From positions 1 to 64,000 of the forward strand of contig CAMAUY010000001.1 of the NCBI GenBank assembly GCA_945861565.1: DNA of 64,000 nt, in the 5' to 3' direction. The DNA is from Akkermansia muciniphila. Lineage in GTDB: Bacteria > Verrucomicrobiota > Verrucomicrobiia > Limisphaerales > UBA9464. The translations under genes and the position numbers were made by a program. The notes under the pieces were generated by a model that did no database searches, was not told the DNA's origin, and was given only the letters and a program-made list of their open reading frames with translations. This document shows positions 12,538 to 21,381 of the stretch, piece by piece. The first letter of the stretch is position 1. Each line of letters begins with the position of its first letter.

Positions 12538-13797
12538 TCAAAACTGGAGGTAGATCGCCTTCAAGTACCATGCTTCCGGGAACGTGGCGGGGTGATCGGG
12601 GGCGTGGCGGGTGGTGCACAACTCGCTGTGGTGTCGACCCGATCGGCGTGCGGTGTCGCGCACGACGCCGAAGAATTCCCCTTCCGTGACATGGGCCGAA
12701 CAAGAGGCTGACAGGAGAATGCCTCCGGGCCGAAGCCGTCCGATGCCGCTGGCGGCGAGTTTGCCATACGCTTGGATGGCTCCGGCGCGCTCGTGTTCGC
12801 GACGGGCGAGCGAGGGGGGGTCGAGGATGATAAGATCGAACTCACGCCGTGGACCCGTCGCGAGCCAATCGAAACAATCAGCCTGCACCGACTCATGGCG
12901 GCAGCCGGTGATCCGGGCTTGATCCAGGTTGAGCGCCACGTTTCGTTTCGCGCTGGCGAGGGCGTGTGCGGAAATGTCGAGATCTGTCAGGGAGCGGGCG
13001 CCGCCCCGGGCAGCATACAGTGAAAACCCACCTGAAAAACTGAACGCGTTGAGCACGTCGCGACCCGCCGCATACGTTTCCACTCGGCGGCGGTTTTCCC
13101 GTTGGTCGAGGTAAAACCCCGTCTTTTGACCCCGCACGACCTCCGCTTCGAATCGCAAACCGGATTCCTGGAAAACAATCACCGGATCCGCTGTTGCCGT
13201 GACAAAGCGAACGTCTCCCGCTTCCGGGCCAGGCGCAACCGCCTCGAAGCCGTCTCCGAGACCGGCCTTGGCAGCTGCCTCTTGGATATTGCGGCTGAGG
13301 CGGAGGATCAGGCGGTCGGGGTGAAATTCTGCGAACAGCATCGGAACCAGTTCCGTCAGGCGCGACAGCCAGACGGTGGAATATAATTTCAGCACGACGG
13401 TCTGTTCATACCGATCCAGGACGAGTCCGGGCCAGCCGTCGTTCTCGCCATGGATCCAACGGTAGCCCGTGGTTTGATCATCAAAAAGTCCGCGCCGCCG
13501 TTCCCGGGACGCACGCAGACGTTCCCTCCACCAATCGGGTGTCACGGTCACCGGTTTCCCGACATGCAGAATTCGCAGTCCGATGGCCGAATCCGGATCG
13601 TATAGACCGAGCGCAAGAAACCGATCCTGGCGATCATAGATCACGGCCAGCTCGCCTGCGTTACCGGCCCGGTTTTGTTCCTTGATGCGGTCGGTATAGA
13701 CCCATGGGTGGCCTTGGCGGACGGCGGATTCCGCAGCGGGTCCAAGCCGCATCCTGAGGCGGGGAGGTGGTTGGGAGGCAGGAGCTACCGCGTTCAC
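12538..13797 (-). CDS. rlmI: RlmI-like 23S rRNA cytosine methyltransferase
   Basis: SAM-dependent class I methyltransferase of the RlmI family, which makes 5-methylcytosine in 23S rRNA. The N-terminal 85 residues form the PUA-like RNA-binding domain ([10 protein letters not shown]). The catalytic domain shows YLDQRENR, the SAM loop [20 protein letters not shown] and the SCSAHV segment that carries a conserved Cys. The length of 419 residues is a little above the usual 395-400. The start appears to be GTG at 13797, giving a four-base GTGA overlap with the upstream DUF1501 gene. An in-frame ATG lies 16 codons further in. The overlap looks like chance compaction, since the functions are unrelated. 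Confidence 0.88.
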
Positions 13798-15257
13798 GCG
13801 AGGACGCTCTGGACCACGCGGCCGTGAACGTCGGTCAGGCGGTAGCGGCGTCCTTGGTATTTGAAGGTCAATCGTTCGTGATCAATGCCGAGTTGATGGA
13901 GCAGCGTTGCCTGCAAGTCATGCACGTGGACGGGGTTTTCTGCCACGCTGTAACCAAATTCATCGGTCGATCCGTAACTGGTTCCCCCCTTGATGCCGGC
14001 GCCTGCCATCCAAATGGAGAAACAGCGCGGGTGATGATCTCGCCCGTAGTCGGTCGGCGTCAGCCTGCCTTGTGAATAACTGGTGCGGCCGAATTCGCCG
14101 CCCCAGACGACGAGTGTTTCGTCGAGCAGACCCCGTTGTTTCAAATCGGTTACGAGGGCATAGGCCGCCTGGTCGATGTCCTTGCATTGTCGCCGGATGC
14201 CGCTCGGGAGACCCCCGTGGTGGTCCCAGCCCGGGTGGTAGAGTTGGATGAAGCGGACGTTGCGTTCGGCGAGGCGGCGAGCGAGGAGGCAGTTGGCGGC
14301 GAAGGTGCCCGGATCGCGCGACTCGGGTCCGTAGAGTTCATAGACGCTGGCAGGCTCGCCGGAGACATCCATCGCCTCGGGGACGGAGGTTTGCATTCGG
14401 TAGGCCATTTCGTATTGGGCCACTCGCGCATTGATTTCTGGATCGCCGAGATCTTCGAACTGCAGTGAGCTCAATTCCGCGAGACGGTCGAGCATCTTGC
14501 GGCGACTGCCGGCGGATTCGCCGTCTGGATTCTGCAGATAGAGAACCGGTTCGCGTCCGCTGCGGAACTGAACGCCCTGATGAATGCTGGGCAGGAATCC
14601 GTTCCCCCACAGGCGGGAGTAGAGGGGTTGATCGATCCGTTGTTTCGAGATGAGCACGACAAAGCAGGGCAGATTCTGATTTGCGCTCCCGAGACCGTAA
14701 CTCAGCCAGGCGCCGAAGGACGGTCGCCCGGCGATTTGATGGCCGGTTTGAAAGAAGGTGATGGCTGGGTCGTGGTTAATGGCCTCGGTGTGGAGGGATT
14801 TTACGATGCAGAGGTCGTCCGCCATCTTCGCTGTCCACGGCAACAGTTCGCTGATCCATCCACCGCTTTGGCCGTGTTGTGCGAACTTGAAAATGGAACC
14901 GGCCATCGGGAGCGTGGCTTGGTTGGCCGACATCCCGGTGAGCCGTTGGCCCCTGCGAACGCTCGCCGGGAGGTCTTCACCGGTGCGACGGACCAGCTCC
15001 GGCTTTGGGTCGAAGAGATCGAGCTGTGACGGACCGCCGCTCATGAAGAGATAGATAATCCGTTTCGCTTTGGGCGCGAAATGGGTGGCGTCGAGGACAC
15101 CGCGAAATGGGTCCGGTAGGGTGGAACCCGCTGACTCCTTGGCGGTGGCGGAAAGTGGATTGAGCAACGTGCCCAACGCTGCTCCGCCGAGGCCCAGGCC
15201 GAACCGGCCGAAGAAGTCGCGGCGGTTCATTTCAAAATTCACATGGGAGCAGTTCAT
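13794..15257 (-). CDS. DUF1501 family protein, Tat-exported
   Basis: A member of DUF1501, a sulfatase/alkaline phosphatase-fold family that is abundant in PVC bacteria. The N-terminus is a Tat signal ([12 protein letters not shown] then a hydrophobic stretch ending SATAKE). Downstream motifs include [27 protein letters not shown] and [13 protein letters not shown], which carry the Asp/His residues of the fold. Length is 487 residues from ATG 15257, or 478 from ATG 15230, which gives the more usual MNRRDFF start. DUF1501 genes typically sit beside a PSCyt1/DUF1549/DUF1553 gene, and one lies upstream on the same strand beyond a 0.6-kb repeat block. The substrate is unknown. Confidence 0.9.
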
Positions 15258-15849: not shown

Positions 15850-18800
15850 CTAGCGGCGTGCGAGCGCTTCGTCGTGGTTAAGCAAGGCCTTCGCCAGGAT
15901 GGTTCCAGCCGCCAAGTCGATGGGATTAACCGAGGGATCGTTCGCCGAGTCTCCCACCGCAAGCAAACGGGCGGCGGCCTGTGGATCTGCGACGAAACCG
16001 TCCCGCTGTTCCCGGTAGAGGCGAGTGAGGACGTTCAATTCAGCACGGGTCGGACGTCGGCTTGTCGTCAGTCGGAATACGTGCGTCAATTGTGCGGTCA
16101 GATCCGGGCCGCCGTCCTGGAGCATTCGCTGGGCCAGAAACCGCGCCGCTTCCACGATCTGCGGATCACTTAGTAACACCAGCGGCTGAAGTGGCGTACT
16201 GGTTGATTGGCGTTGAACCGAACAATTGCTCCGATCGGCGGCATCAAAAATCATCATCGCTGGATGCGGCACCGTCCGCTTCCAGTACGAGTATAGGCTC
16301 CGCCGGTGAAGGTCGTCACCGTGCGCCTGATCATAGTTCGCGCCATTCGATGCCACATCCAGGACACCGGCCGGTTGGTAGGGTTTGACGCTGGGCCCGC
16401 CGATCTTGGGCGACAGCAAACCACTGGCCGCGAGAGCTTGATCCCGCAGCATTTCGGCGGTGAGCCGTCGCGACGGTCCACGGGCAAGCAGCGTGTTGCC
16501 CGGATCCTGCGTCAGCATTTCGGGTGACGTGCGTGAGGACTGCCGGTAGGTAGCACTGGTGACGATCAGTCGACACAAGTCTTTCCAACGCCAGCCCAGT
16601 GCGGTTCTCGAGGACGCAGCATTCGTGTTCACCGGCGAGCGAAACGCATCGGCAAGCCAGTCGAGTAGTTCTGGGTGCGTTGGCATTCCACCCTGCGAAC
16701 CGAAATTGTCAGCCGTTTCCACCAGGCCCTTGCCAAAGAAAAGCTGCCATGCCCGGTTCACGGTCACTCGAGCGGTCAGCGGGTTTTCCTCCGACAACAA
16801 CCACCGGGCGAATCCCAATCGATTCCGCGGTTCACCCTTCGGAAATGGCGGGAGGAATTTGGGCGTATCGCCCGTTACTTCATCGGTGCGCTGGTCGTAC
16901 GCACCCCGGCGCAGGACGTACGCCTTCTTCGGCGTCGGCATCTCGTCCATCACCATGATGTCTTGGATGCTCGATACCAGCGCGCTTTGTTCACGCCTCA
17001 TTGTGGCCAGTTCGGACCGGAACTGCCGGGCACCCGGATGCTGAGTGGCCACATAGTAATCGAGTAGTTGGCGACGTTCATCGGCTGTGAAATCGGGAGG
17101 GGCGGTGGACAATGCCCGGACGAGATCGGAATGCCCCGCCAAATGGGCCATCTCCAGAGTTGTCAGGGCCCGGTTGTACACGCGAAATTCATCGACCTGT
17201 CCTCCCCGGAACCCGCTGTCCCGCATCCGGAATCCGATCGCCAGATCGGGTTCTCCACCCGCATAGGTGATGTCCCTCCAGAGGCCGTCCCGGACAATCT
17301 CCACCGCCGCCTGACGGCCATTGAGATAGAGCTTAAGTCCGGAGGCACGACTGCTGCCGTCATAGGTGAAGGCCACGTGCGTCCAGACATGGGTGGAAAT
17401 GGCTTCCCGGGCGCGGAGCTTGAGGCTGTTCCCGGGCCACATATGGTGCAGCCCGACTGTCGCATGCCCGTTCTCAAGCAGGAGTTCGTAACCGCGACTT
17501 CCGGCATCCATCCATGCCCGGCTATGATGCACGACTACCTGTCGTTCCATGAGCGTGGGCGTCCGCAACCAGATACTCACAGAGAATGCGTCCGCCCGGC
17601 CGAAGTGTCCGATCCCGGGGAACGTCAACCCGTTCTCCCCCGTCAACTCAACGCCGGCACCGACGAGCCCCGCCACCAGGGCCGGTTCATCGGCCAAACT
17701 GGCGGGCTTCGATCCATCGACTCCGTTCGTGTATTTGCCCTCCTTTCGTTCTTCGAATCCAAAGGTACCCACGGCTCCAGGTATCACCTCCGCCGGTACG
17801 ACCTGATTGAGGGCATCGGGTCCACTCGACAGCTTCGGCATGGATTTTCGACCCTCGGCCAGCCAGGCTTCGAATGCCGGTGTTGCCATCGCGGCCAGTG
17901 CAGACTCTTGCGTTTCGCGAGCCCCAATGCGCCGACGGATCTCAGCAAGACGATCCTCCTGTTCCGGGGTGCTTAAGAGCATCGTCGGCACCGGCATAAT
18001 ATCACCGAAATAGACGCTCTGACCGGATTCATCGATGTTCTGGAAAAAGGAGAACAATGAATAGAAATCCTTCTGCAAGAGAGGATCGTACTTATGGTCG
18101 TGGCACCGTGAGCATTCCGATGTGAGCCCCAGAAAGGCCGTACTGACGGTATTCACGCGGTCCACGACATAGGAGACTCGGAACTCTTCCTCCACAATGC
18201 CGCCTTCTTCGTTCTGCATGTGAAGCCGGTTAAAAGCCGTGGCGAGCCGCTGTTGGCGGGTCGCCCCCGGAAGGAGATCGCCAGCGAGTTGCCACGTCAC
18301 GAATTGGTCGAAGGGGAGATCTTTGTTAAATGCATCGATGGCCCAGTCCCTCCAGGGCCACATGGGCCGGTAGCGGTCACTCTGAAACCCATGGGTGTCG
18401 GCGTAGCGCGCGACGTCCAACCAATCGTTCGCCATGCGCTCTCCGAAGGCGGGGGAGTTCAGGAGGCGGGTGACCACCGTCTCGTAGGCGTTGGTGGAGG
18501 AGTCGGCCAAAAAGGCGTCGAGATCGGCCAGCGTCGGTGGAAGACCGGTAAGATCAAATGTGACCCGTCGGAGGAGTCGCTCGCGATCGGCCTCGGGCGA
18601 CGGAGTCACCCCCGCCTTGTCCAGCCGGGCGAGAACGAATGAATCAATCGGGTTCCGAATCGTCCGGCCGCCCCGGACGTGCGGCGGAGTCACTTTCCGG
18701 ATGGGGTTGAACGACCAGTGGGGACGATGTTCGGCACCCTCTTCAACCCACCGGCGCAGGAGTTCTTTCTCTTCGGAGGAAAGCGCGAGGTTAGATTCCG

Positions 18801-19107
18801 GCGGCGGCATGACTTCGTCCTTCACCGTTGAATAAATCCGACGGATCAGTTCCGAACCCTCCGGGGCACCGGGTGTGATGATCTTCTTTCCGTCCTTATT
18901 TTGACTGAAGGCACCTTCGTGGGTGTCCAGGCGCAGCTTTCCCTTTCGTTGCTTCTCGTCGGGTCCGTGGCAGGCGTAGCAGCGGTCCGAGAGCAGCGGT
19001 TGAATCTGAAAATTGAAGTCCAGCCGGTCCGCCGCCCGACTGTGGCGGACGGACAAGGCGAGACCGAGCGCGAGCAGGAACCGGCCGATGACGCGAGTTA
19101 AAAGCAT
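15850..19107 (-). CDS. PSCyt1-DUF1549-LamG-DUF1553 exported protein
   Basis: Large exported protein of about 1085 residues, typical of PVC bacteria. It opens with a signal peptide (MLLTRVIGRFLLALGLALS), then the PSCyt1 cytochrome-like domain with a CYACHG heme-type motif at about residues 43-48. DUF1549 follows (NPIDSFVLARLDKAGV, NDWLDVARYADTHG). A concanavalin/LamG-type domain occupies roughly residues 475-655 (FSVSIWLRTPT, FTYDGSSRASGLKLYLNG). The C-terminal DUF1553 has PLTARVTVNRAWQLFFG. ATG 19107 gives the signal peptide; upstream in-frame codons run through repeat C. These proteins are usually paired with DUF1501 proteins, as here. They are thought to act in periplasmic breakdown of complex carbohydrates, but the chemistry is not established. 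Confidence 0.9.
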   Translation of the reverse strand: MLLTRVIGRFLLALGLALSVRHSRAADRLDFNFQIQPLLSDRCYACHGPDEKQRKGKLRLDTHEGAFSQNKDGKKIITPGAPEGSELIRRIYSTVKDEVMPPPESNLALSSEEKELLRRWVEEGAEHRPHWSFNPIRKVTPPHVRGGRTIRNPIDSFVLARLDKAGVTPSPEADRERLLRRVTFDLTGLPPTLADLDAFLADSSTNAYETVVTRLLNSPAFGERMANDWLDVARYADTHGFQSDRYRPMWPWRDWAIDAFNKDLPFDQFVTWQLAGDLLPGATRQQRLATAFNRLHMQNEEGGIVEEEFRVSYVVDRVNTVSTAFLGLTSECSRCHDHKYDPLLQKDFYSLFSFFQNIDESGQSVYFGDIMPVPTMLLSTPEQEDRLAEIRRRIGARETQESALAAMATPAFEAWLAEGRKSMPKLSSGPDALNQVVPAEVIPGAVGTFGFEERKEGKYTNGVDGSKPASLADEPALVAGLVGAGVELTGENGLTFPGIGHFGRADAFSVSIWLRTPTLMERQVVVHHSRAWMDAGSRGYELLLENGHATVGLHHMWPGNSLKLRAREAISTHVWTHVAFTYDGSSRASGLKLYLNGRQAAVEIVRDGLWRDITYAGGEPDLAIGFRMRDSGFRGGQVDEFRVYNRALTTLEMAHLAGHSDLVRALSTAPPDFTADERRQLLDYYVATQHPGARQFRSELATMRREQSALVSSIQDIMVMDEMPTPKKAYVLRRGAYDQRTDEVTGDTPKFLPPFPKGEPRNRLGFARWLLSEENPLTARVTVNRAWQLFFGKGLVETADNFGSQGGMPTHPELLDWLADAFRSPVNTNAASSRTALGWRWKDLCRLIVTSATYRQSSRTSPEMLTQDPGNTLLARGPSRRLTAEMLRDQALAASGLLSPKIGGPSVKPYQPAGVLDVASNGANYDQAHGDDLHRRSLYSYWKRTVPHPAMMIFDAADRSNCSVQRQSTSTPLQPLVLLSDPQIVEAARFLAQRMLQDGGPDLTAQLTHVFRLTTSRRPTRAELNVLTRLYREQRDGFVADPQAAARLLAVGDSANDPSVNPIDLAAGTILAKALLNHDEALARR

Positions 19108-19174
19108 CGGACCGAAATGTAGGCTCACTTCCGCTCGATGGCCAACCCTCAAAGCGGGGTCCCGTTTCAATGGG

Positions 19175-19335
19175 CGCATCCAGAAGTTGTTGGTAGAGGT
19201 TGTCGCGCTGCGACAACCCCGCCCGCGTCCAGCGGGCGGACAGGGCCACTGCGCGGTTCGTGCCGCGCCTGAACGGCGCGGGGACGCCGCAGCGCGGCGT
19301 CCGCTACCGTCTCCAACAACTTCAGGATGCACCGC
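19175..19335. repeat. Structured repeat C, copy 3
   Basis: A complete copy with ends gcgcatccagaagttgttgg and ccaacaacttcaggatgcac. It has the internal hairpins gttgtcgcgctgcgacaac, cccgcccgcgtccagcgggc, cgcggttcgtgccgcg and ggacgccgcagcgcggcgtcc. It lies between the PSCyt1 gene start and the tatC stop, ending three bases short of the tatC stop codon. Confidence 0.85.
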
Positions 19336-19338
19336 ATC

Positions 19339-20739
19339 TCAAGCGGTGGCACCGGAGTCGGCCTGAGCGGCCATTCGTTTCGCCTTCCGATCCCAATACC
19401 ACGCAACGATAACCGTAATCTCGTAGAGGATCTCGAGCGGCAGGAACAAGATTACCATGTTGATCGGGTTGCCGTCCGGGGTGATGAACCCGGCGATGAC
19501 CAACCCGATGACCACCCAGTACATTCGGAACGACGAAAGTTTGGCGGCGTCCAGGATGCCGATCTTGACCAGGGTGAGGAGCACGAGCGGCAGCTGGAAG
19601 GCGACGCCCATACCCACCATAAACCAGAGTACGAACGAGATATACTGCTCGGCTTGCCATTGGTCGGAACCGAAGCCCAGCCAATTCGAGAAACTGACCG
19701 TTGTACTGAGGCAGATAATGAGGAAAACGAGGTAGCAAAGGGTTACCCCGAGCAAAAACAGAAACGAAGCCCAACCGGCGACTTTGTAGAGAAACTTCTT
19801 CTCAGGGACGTGGAGGGCTGGAAGTACGAACTGGCCGATAAAGAGGAGGAGGAACGGAGCCGCCACCGTAAGTCCACCGTAGAGCGCGATCTGCATCACG
19901 ATGTTGAAGGCGCTGATGGGGCCGAAGTTCTTCAAGTCAACCGTCGATTGACGGGTGGCGGAGACGGGTGGATTTGTCTCCAACTGAAAAGCCGCGACCC
20001 AATTGGTGCCGATCTGCACCGGGGTAAGCCTGTACACGGAGCTCACATTTGTTGGGACTCCCGGCAATGAACTACCGAGGGTGGCTTCCCGGCCGATCAC
20101 ATTGGTGCCTACCAGATACGTGATCGAATGATTGGATGTGATCCGTTTGTTCATGGCCTGCTCAAGCGGCCATTTCAGAAAACCCGTGATATAATTGGCA
20201 CCGCTCAGGCAGAGAATGAAGGAGACCGCGTAGGCTACCGCACACTTGATGAAGGTCCAGCGAAGGTCCTCGAGGTGTTCGATAAATGTTTTGACGGGTC
20301 CGCCACCCTCGTCTTCCGCGATAGGTTCCAAGTCGGATTCAGGAGTGTGATGCCACGAAGATTTTGAGTGAGGCGAAGAATACGGCTGCATGGCCGATTC
20401 GTGCCCTGACTCGTGCCCTGACTCGTGCCCCGACTCGTGCCCCGACTCGTGCCCTGACCCGTGCCCCGACTCGTGCCCCGACTCGTGCCCTGACCCGTGC
20501 CCCGACTCGTGCCCCGACTCGTGCCCTGACCCGTGCCCTGACCCGTGCCCTGACTCGTGCCCTGACTCGTGCCCTGACTCGTGCCCTGGCTCGTGCCCTG
20601 GCTCGTGCCCTGGCTCGTGCCCTGGCTCGGGGCTTGGCTCGGGCGTCGGCTCGGGCGTCGGCTCGGGCCCTGGCTCGGGGCTTGGCTTGTGAGCAGGGTC
20701 CGGAGCGCTAGGGGACAAGTCCTTGGGATTTTCGCCCAT
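19339..20739 (-). CDS. tatC: Twin-arginine translocase subunit TatC with repetitive N-terminus
   Basis: Multi-pass core subunit of the Tat protein-export pathway. The TatC fold starts near residue 150 with FIEHLEDLRWTFIK, the conserved cytoplasmic start, followed by about six hydrophobic segments to the C-terminus. The product of about 466 residues is nearly double the usual 240-260. Two additions explain this. An N-terminal extension of about 140 residues consists of PEP-type units and then tetrapeptides GHEP, GHES and GHGS. There is also a long loop between the first two membrane segments. ATG 20739 is chosen over TTG 20772. tatA lies upstream on the same strand. Several proteins in this window carry Tat signals, so the system has clients here. 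Confidence 0.9.
   Translation of the reverse strand: MGENPKDLSPSAPDPAHKPSPEPGPEPTPEPTPEPSPEPGHEPGHEPGHEPGHESGHESGHESGHGSGHGSGHESGHESGHGSGHESGHESGHGSGHESGHESGHESGHESGHESAMQPYSSPHSKSSWHHTPESDLEPIAEDEGGGPVKTFIEHLEDLRWTFIKCAVAYAVSFILCLSGANYITGFLKWPLEQAMNKRITSNHSITYLVGTNVIGREATLGSSLPGVPTNVSSVYRLTPVQIGTNWVAAFQLETNPPVSATRQSTVDLKNFGPISAFNIVMQIALYGGLTVAAPFLLLFIGQFVLPALHVPEKKFLYKVAGWASFLFLLGVTLCYLVFLIICLSTTVSFSNWLGFGSDQWQAEQYISFVLWFMVGMGVAFQLPLVLLTLVKIGILDAAKLSSFRMYWVVIGLVIAGFITPDGNPINMVILFLPLEILYEITVIVAWYWDRKAKRMAAQADSGATA
20397..20634. repeat. 12-bp tandem repeat array coding for GHES/GHGS/GHEP units
   Basis: About 19 copies of a 12-base unit (plus strand variants gactcgtgccct, gactcgtgcccc, gacccgtgccct and ggctcgtgccct) inside tatC. 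Differences between units are single-base changes that keep the frame. Read on the minus strand, the array gives tetrapeptides with His at position 2. The plus strand is also open, reading DSCP units, which I take to be a by-product of the repeat. Confidence 0.92.
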
Positions 20740-20823
20740 GAAACGGGGAATCAGTCGGCCGAAAAACGGCAACGGCGGTCATCGACCGCCGTTGCGCCCA
20801 GTTCGGTGGGAAAACGTGTGGAC

Positions 20824-21087
20824 CTATTTGGACTGGGCAATCGAGTCTGTGGGACGGTGGGGACCTGGGGGCGTGGGAGGATGCGCTTCCTCGTCGAAGG
20901 CCCGTTGCACTTCGTCCTGGACATCGCGGGAGGCCTTCTTGAACTCCTTGATGCCAGTGCCCACGCCCTTCATCAGTTCAGGCACTTTCTTGGCTCCGAA
21001 CAGCACCAAAACGACGATGGCGATCCACATGATCTCGGTGCCACCGATCCCGGCCAGCACCGGCGAGAATTGAGAAATAGTGATCAT
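20824..21087 (-). CDS. tatA: Twin-arginine translocase subunit TatA/TatE
   Basis: An 87-residue small Tat component. A short periplasmic N-terminus precedes one membrane helix (about residues 18-34, [19 protein letters not shown]). The FGAKKVPEL hinge and a charged amphipathic helix ([16 protein letters not shown]) follow. This order is diagnostic of TatA/TatB-type subunits; the FGxKK hinge favours TatA/E over TatB. It lies 84 bases upstream of the tatC start on the same strand, so the two are probably cotranscribed. No tatB is present in the window; many bacteria use a single TatA plus TatC. Confidence 0.92.
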
Positions 21088-21306: not shown

Positions 21307-21381
21307 TGGTGCGCGGTACAGGGTTCGAACCTGTGACCCCTACAGTGTCAATGTAGTGCTCTACCACTGAGCTAACCGCGC
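21307..21381 (-). tRNA. tRNA-Val (GAC)
   Basis: The minus strand folds as a complete cloverleaf. The acceptor stem is gcgcggt paired with accgcgc. The D-arm has agctcagtggtagagc. The anticodon stem ctaca/tgtag encloses the loop ttgacac, giving anticodon GAC (Val). The T-arm is acaggttcgaaccctgt. A CCA end is encoded at 21307-21309. It sits between tatA and hprK. Confidence 0.95.

Follow-up and report, generated by a model that had tools for sequence, protein, structure and literature searches.

A histidine-rich repeat tail on a TatC protein and its counterparts across the order

The window analysed here, a DNA stretch of 64,000 nucleotides, carries a tatC gene whose product begins with a long tail of regularly spaced His residues. 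This raises the question of whether the tail serves the Tat translocase or is a by-product of repeat expansion. The features on which the argument draws are as follows (all coordinates are those of the window).

13794–15257, minus strand: DUF1501 protein with an RRDFF Tat signal and a predicted alkaline-phosphatase/sulfatase-like fold (Pfam; AlphaFold, Foldseek)
15850–19332, minus strand: PSCyt1-PSCyt2-Laminin_G_3-PSD1 (DUF1549/DUF1553) gene downstream of tatC (Pfam)
19339–20739, minus strand: tatC coding sequence, 466 aa (translation; full-length Pfam PF00902)
19438–20280, minus strand: TatC core, six TM helices (Pfam match; invariant columns; Foldseek to 4b4a, 9dzz and others)
19930–20145, minus strand: insert rich in beta structure within the first periplasmic loop, approximately residues 199–270 (AlphaFold model)
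20305–20739, minus strand: N-terminal tail, residues 1–145, acidic, Cys-free, predicted to be disordered and cytosolic (AlphaFold; composition)
20399–20629, minus strand: 12-bp tandem array of 19.2 copies coding HEPG/HESG/HGSG (TRF)
20630–20687, minus strand: degenerate repeats further upstream that keep the four-residue register and code PEPx (TRF long row 20399–20687; unit table)
20769–20795, minus strand: strong terminator-like hairpin with a run of T, separating tatA from tatC and conserved in a congener
20824–21087, minus strand: tatA (Pfam PF02416)
21307–21381: tRNA-Val(GAC) between hprK and tatA

The tatC gene and its tail

The open reading frame, with its ATG at 20739 and its stop at 19339, encodes 466 residues beginning with MGENPKDLSP. 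The repeat (94% matches, TRF score 364) reads in frame as 19 tetrapeptides with His first, namely three HEPG, then HESG/HGSG and a last HESA, and about five PEPx units precede it. Within this genome (G000), a pattern of five His at four-codon spacing matches 22 times, 15 of them inside the array; a further His-rich stretch, HGHGHWGGHGGGHRGGH-like, lies elsewhere, at G000:C165:10404-10466. Pfam TatC matched over its whole length (1–208 of 208) with 154 bits against a cut-off of 25.1, which bears out the earlier note's description of about 19 such tetrapeptides, encoded by a 12-base array, ahead of a complete TatC. The AlphaFold core had pLDDT values mostly of 85–98, and Foldseek aligned it to 4b4a with an E-value of 1.5e-9 and a TM-score of 0.88 on the target. 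The last ~320 residues are thus a complete TatC by Pfam, AlphaFold core and Foldseek to solved TatC and TatBC. The cut-off of the NCBIfam equivalog TIGR00945 was not reached (112 against 132.7 bits, the match spanning the last 178 residues only), probably owing to divergence and the loop insert; this cut-off serves for naming and does not define Pfam TatC. The beta-rich insert, of about 70 residues, is found in TatC of the order and is still longer in some f1/g6 members (L079–L081).

The tail would be an untranslated leader if TatC began at the in-frame ATG after the array (MQPYSS), a start that the earlier note had named as its possible refutation. Such an ATG is present both in G000 and in its congener G002, the upstream ATG has no clear Shine-Dalgarno sequence, and the hairpin lies between that ATG and tatA. 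However, the N-terminus MGENPxDLSP is conserved in frame in three of three congeners, and no stop or frameshift interrupts the frame from the ATG to the TatC body, a 1-base indel lying just upstream of the ATG. A stop in G002 directly precedes the ATG common to both genomes, so that the TTG at 20772 given as the start by the ORF caller is not shared. Other families also have long tails with conserved starts. Because of the closed upstream frame, the intact downstream frame and the conserved N-terminus, the MQPYSS start was rejected, and we consider it highly improbable. By all indirect signs the tail appears to be translated.

The genes on the minus strand follow in the order hprK, tRNA-Val, tatA, hairpin, tatC, PSCyt/PSD1 gene and DUF1501, and the hairpin may mean that tatC is attenuated or has its own promoter. 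One PF02416 and one PF00902 match make up a minimal Tat system in G000 (93% complete); no tatB was found there, tatA being the sole TatA/B-like gene found. Loss of TatB as the reason for the tail was rejected, because genomes with short tails usually have just one TatA-like gene as well.

The 146-residue tail contains 23 His, compared with 1.0% His in the TatC cores of the order (p about 8e-21 in a binomial test), and 19 of these 23 stand in perfect four-residue register. It has a net charge of −26 and is poor in Lys and Arg. Its best 40-residue span holds 10 His, which places it among the His-rich tails of the order, defined as long acidic Cys-free N-tails in which a stretch of 40 residues holds 9 His or more. 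The disorder of residues 1–145 is predicted from AlphaFold block-mean pLDDT values of 36–57 for residues 1–150.

The tail joins the first transmembrane helix (TMH1) directly (GGPVKTFIEHLEDLR, mostly invariant). Residues H155, D158, F304 and E313, invariant among 54 relatives, are by sequence motif the equivalents of H12, E15 (Asp for Glu), F94 and E103 of E. coli TatC. The twin-arginine (RR) motif contacts E15 in TMH1, F94, Y100 and E103 in E. coli (PMC13323110). RR contacts lie at TMH1 and the TMH2-3 region in solved Tat complexes, and TMH1 begins on the cytosolic side, next to the signal-peptide site (PMC13323110), in agreement with what the earlier note had said of TatC N-termini. Given these contacts and a tail that runs straight into TMH1, we infer that the tail sits at the docking site, provided that the topology is as in E. 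coli.

The E. coli and Aquifex aeolicus TatC proteins (PF00902; Foldseek E 1e-9 to 1e-7) share the fold and the docking residues (in HLxxLR the H, the R and the acidic position; the F; and the E in the EKK loop). However, the model of E. coli TatC begins at residue 6, which leaves an N-tail of only a few residues compared with about 145 here, where the beta insert is a further difference. Lineage-specific sequence has also been added to the atypical TatC of Nitratifractor and Myxococcus, but as large periplasmic inserts (PMC13323110), whereas the tail described here is N-terminal, predicted to be cytosolic, and His-rich.

His-rich tails in the genus and across the order

A comparison of the array in related strains, as the earlier note had proposed, revealed it in all three species examined of the genus, with differing DNA units: HESG/HEPG in G000, HEPG/HEPV/PEPA in G002, where the array is longer and the TatC body 95% identical, and HEPS in G001. 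The G001 contig (L037, G001:C103:1-) ends inside the array after at least 11 units, and the TatC body is absent from the assembly; repeat tails of this kind will be under-reported in short-read MAGs. His is encoded by CAC in G000, by CAC and CAT in G002, and by CAT in G001, and Glu by GAG, with GAA in addition in G002. His and Glu are mostly kept in the four-residue register in all three congeners while the fourth position drifts among G, V, A and S, the exceptions being four E-to-G units in G000 and seven units with Pro for His in G002. An accident of a single strain was rejected, as all three congeners have the tail.

The other TatC proteins read in the family had short acidic tails of about 31–48 residues, with one of 68, except in two g7 genomes with long tails of moderate His content; outside this genus, none of the genera of the family that were read has the array. 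A search for related loci returned only the congener CAMDJH010000012.1 (L032; TatC 95%, 6.4-Mb genome), which is labelled as an Akkermansia muciniphila MAG, a doubtful species label. Taken with the PSCyt/PSD domains, the label points to Verrucomicrobiota (compare PMC5615132). Genomes of the same family also carry GHEH/HEHG tandem arrays (L045, L046, L047, L048) in LarC-type nickel insertion and CobW/CobW_C proteins, their copy number varying between species. The His stretches of LarC and CobW/COG0523 (L046, L047) resemble the tatC array in their tandem 12-bp His/Glu/Gly units, but they have HxH spacing (GHEHGHEH) and belong to soluble metallocentre-assembly proteins, whereas the tatC array is on a translocase.

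Among 126 distinct TatC cores compared across the order, long tails occurred in about sixteen families or genera and were His-rich in ten (f1/g1, f2, f3, f7, f24, f26, f30, f37, f54 and f55). Most His-rich tails lack repeats and carry boxes such as DDPYHDEYSHDYEDEYHQEHHDDFHEHDHGEYEY or, in f24, DDPYHDEYSHDYEDEYHQEHHDDFHEHDHG. They are strongly acidic (net charge −20 to −66) and poor in Lys and Arg, and the order's short tails share this acidity. Tyr accompanies His in most boxes and takes its place in f11, where the tails (L077, L155) have a conserved box, YYAYGYDSQGPEGYTPYPGE, that is rich in Tyr and contains no His. In the 21 His-tail genomes, the motif YHDEY matched once outside TatC. The TatC tree required no fewer than 7 changes in His-richness and 10 in length. 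Supported branches place the window's genus inside a clade of short tails, so that its tail is a separate gain; outside this genus the deep branches are poorly resolved and gain is indistinguishable from loss. No His-rich tail was seen in 20 long-frame TatC proteins read outside the order but within the phylum, a reading that covered long frames among the stronger matches listed; a trait of the whole phylum was rejected to that extent. The literature searched gave no description of His-rich TatC tails.

Close pairs in f7, f24, f26 and f37 were compared with NG86, and the His box mostly had lower dN and dN/dS than the N-terminal linker. For L172–L173, dN and dS were 0.048 and 0.97 in the box, 0.195 and 0.65 in the linker, and 0.050 and 0.67 in the core. 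These values support purifying selection on the His boxes of non-repeat families where measured. Between G000 and G002, dN/dS was 0.23 in the array, 0.32 in the flanking tail and 0.05 in the core. The array's values (dN 0.183, dS 0.81) are blurred by repeat turnover, and because turnover makes the copies alike, selection on the array itself is not cleanly measurable. Selection on the tail is supported. As comparable tails occur in many lineages, mostly those that export unusually many metalloenzyme-like proteins, the tail probably has a use instead of being a random repeat.

Tat cargo load

The median density of DUF1501 genes was 25.8 per Mb in His-tail genomes, 8.0 in short-tail genomes and 3.1 in genomes with long tails without His. 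The association with the His tail gave PGLS p-values of 3e-5 to 1.5e-4, and below 4e-5 with any one His lineage left out; the test was chosen after a weaker one on Tat-signal density, so the p-values should be weighed accordingly, and the correlation has no direction. First-look counts were 73–257 in all 21 His-tail genomes, with medians of 49 in short-tail genomes and 11 in those with long tails without His; these counts are loose, with the best 26 per genome scored, and in His-tail genomes all of those 26 matched. Candidate DUF1501 genes range from 73–257 per genome in some lineages of the order to 0–11 in others. The short-tail genomes G006, G065, G077 and G068 also have many DUF1501 genes, and independent-pair tests offered four supported pairs, too few for significance. 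The density of Tat signals overall (TIGR01409) was 12.1 per Mb in His-tail genomes against 6.9 (raw p 2e-10). However, this association was weak after phylogenetic correction (PGLS p 0.08–0.10) and was set aside.

Where the reading frame was correct, almost every DUF1501 protein carried an RR signal. A Foldseek search with the AlphaFold model of the window's DUF1501 protein revealed similarity with alkaline phosphatases and sulfatases (probability 1.0 at an E-value of about 1e-6, with low TM-scores of about 0.35); DUF1501 had no solved relative by sequence. Alkaline phosphatases and sulfatases are metal-dependent enzymes, and by this structural analogy DUF1501 may itself hold metal.

Metal, charge or repeat expansion

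The reading that we prefer, tentatively and at somewhat less than an even chance, is that the tail is the genus's own version of a trait recurrent in the order: a selected cytosolic His/acidic tail at the docking site, metal-binding, for metalloenzyme-like cargo. Judged by its residues, the tail probably binds metal, and His with carboxylates in the absence of Cys would plausibly suit Ni, Zn, Co, Cu or Mn. A putative metal link is made plausible by this composition together with the comparable His arrays that LarC and CobW proteins carry in this family, and the DUF1501 association and the alkaline-phosphatase/sulfatase-like cargo fold would support it indirectly. A long, disordered tail of this kind would extend into the cytosol from TMH1, beside the twin-arginine docking residues. 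Up to three tails, one per TatC of a trimeric core, could together cover the translocase's cytosolic mouth as a multivalent brush of His and carboxylate groups. Such a brush would bind divalent metal and might help to hold or check folded metal-dependent cargo before export, above all the numerous DUF1501 proteins. It is rather doubtful, though conceivable, that TatC in this order was repeatedly given a disordered, His-rich domain that binds metal, as a metal-responsive checkpoint or metal store for DUF1501-type cargo, with the window's genus rebuilding it from a 12-bp repeat.

The main rival is a cargo antenna without metal, in which the acidic tail would draw basic RR signal peptides by charge, with His and Tyr acting by pi or pH-dependent contacts, or would form condensate-like assemblies that concentrate cargo. 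The strong acidity of the His-rich tails, shared by the short ones, and the Tyr beside or instead of His are consistent with this, the f11 boxes implying that metal need not be the common theme. So are the raw Tat-signal densities and the finding that phase separation aids Tat targeting in chloroplasts (PMC8740050). The STT1/STT2 condensates for Tat cargo likewise involve a disordered region acting ahead of the translocase, but these are separate ankyrin proteins of seed plants, without a His tail on TatC (PMC8740050). However, acidic residues alone would suffice for an antenna, which leaves the repeated choice of His unexplained, and the Tat-signal correlation fades once corrected whereas that with DUF1501 is stronger. 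We regard the antenna as somewhat unlikely. Neutral expansion, the alternative that the earlier note had put forward, would have a 12-bp unit slip and spread in a length-tolerant tail, His being a by-product of the founding unit. At the DNA level this suggestion fits: the array is clean with lineage-specific units, its codons lie one base apart (CCC/CAC, CCA/TCA, GAG/GGG), and the family's other genera lack it. It does not explain the His-rich, mostly non-repeat tails of the nine other lineages, whose His boxes are constrained where measured, or the association with DUF1501 load. Nor does it explain why His and Glu persist in three species that differ in synonymous codons for them and whose fourth position drifts. 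Expansion may account for the window's array itself, but as an account of the tail we consider it unlikely.

Metal handling for metalloenzyme-like cargo is the preferred reading. The Tat system exports proteins after folding and cofactor uptake, which leads to the question of how the translocase senses completed loading. If the preferred reading is true, a His-rich TatC region at the docking site, found in many lineages and tracking the number of metalloenzyme-like cargo proteins, would be a direct and testable link from metal status to Tat export.
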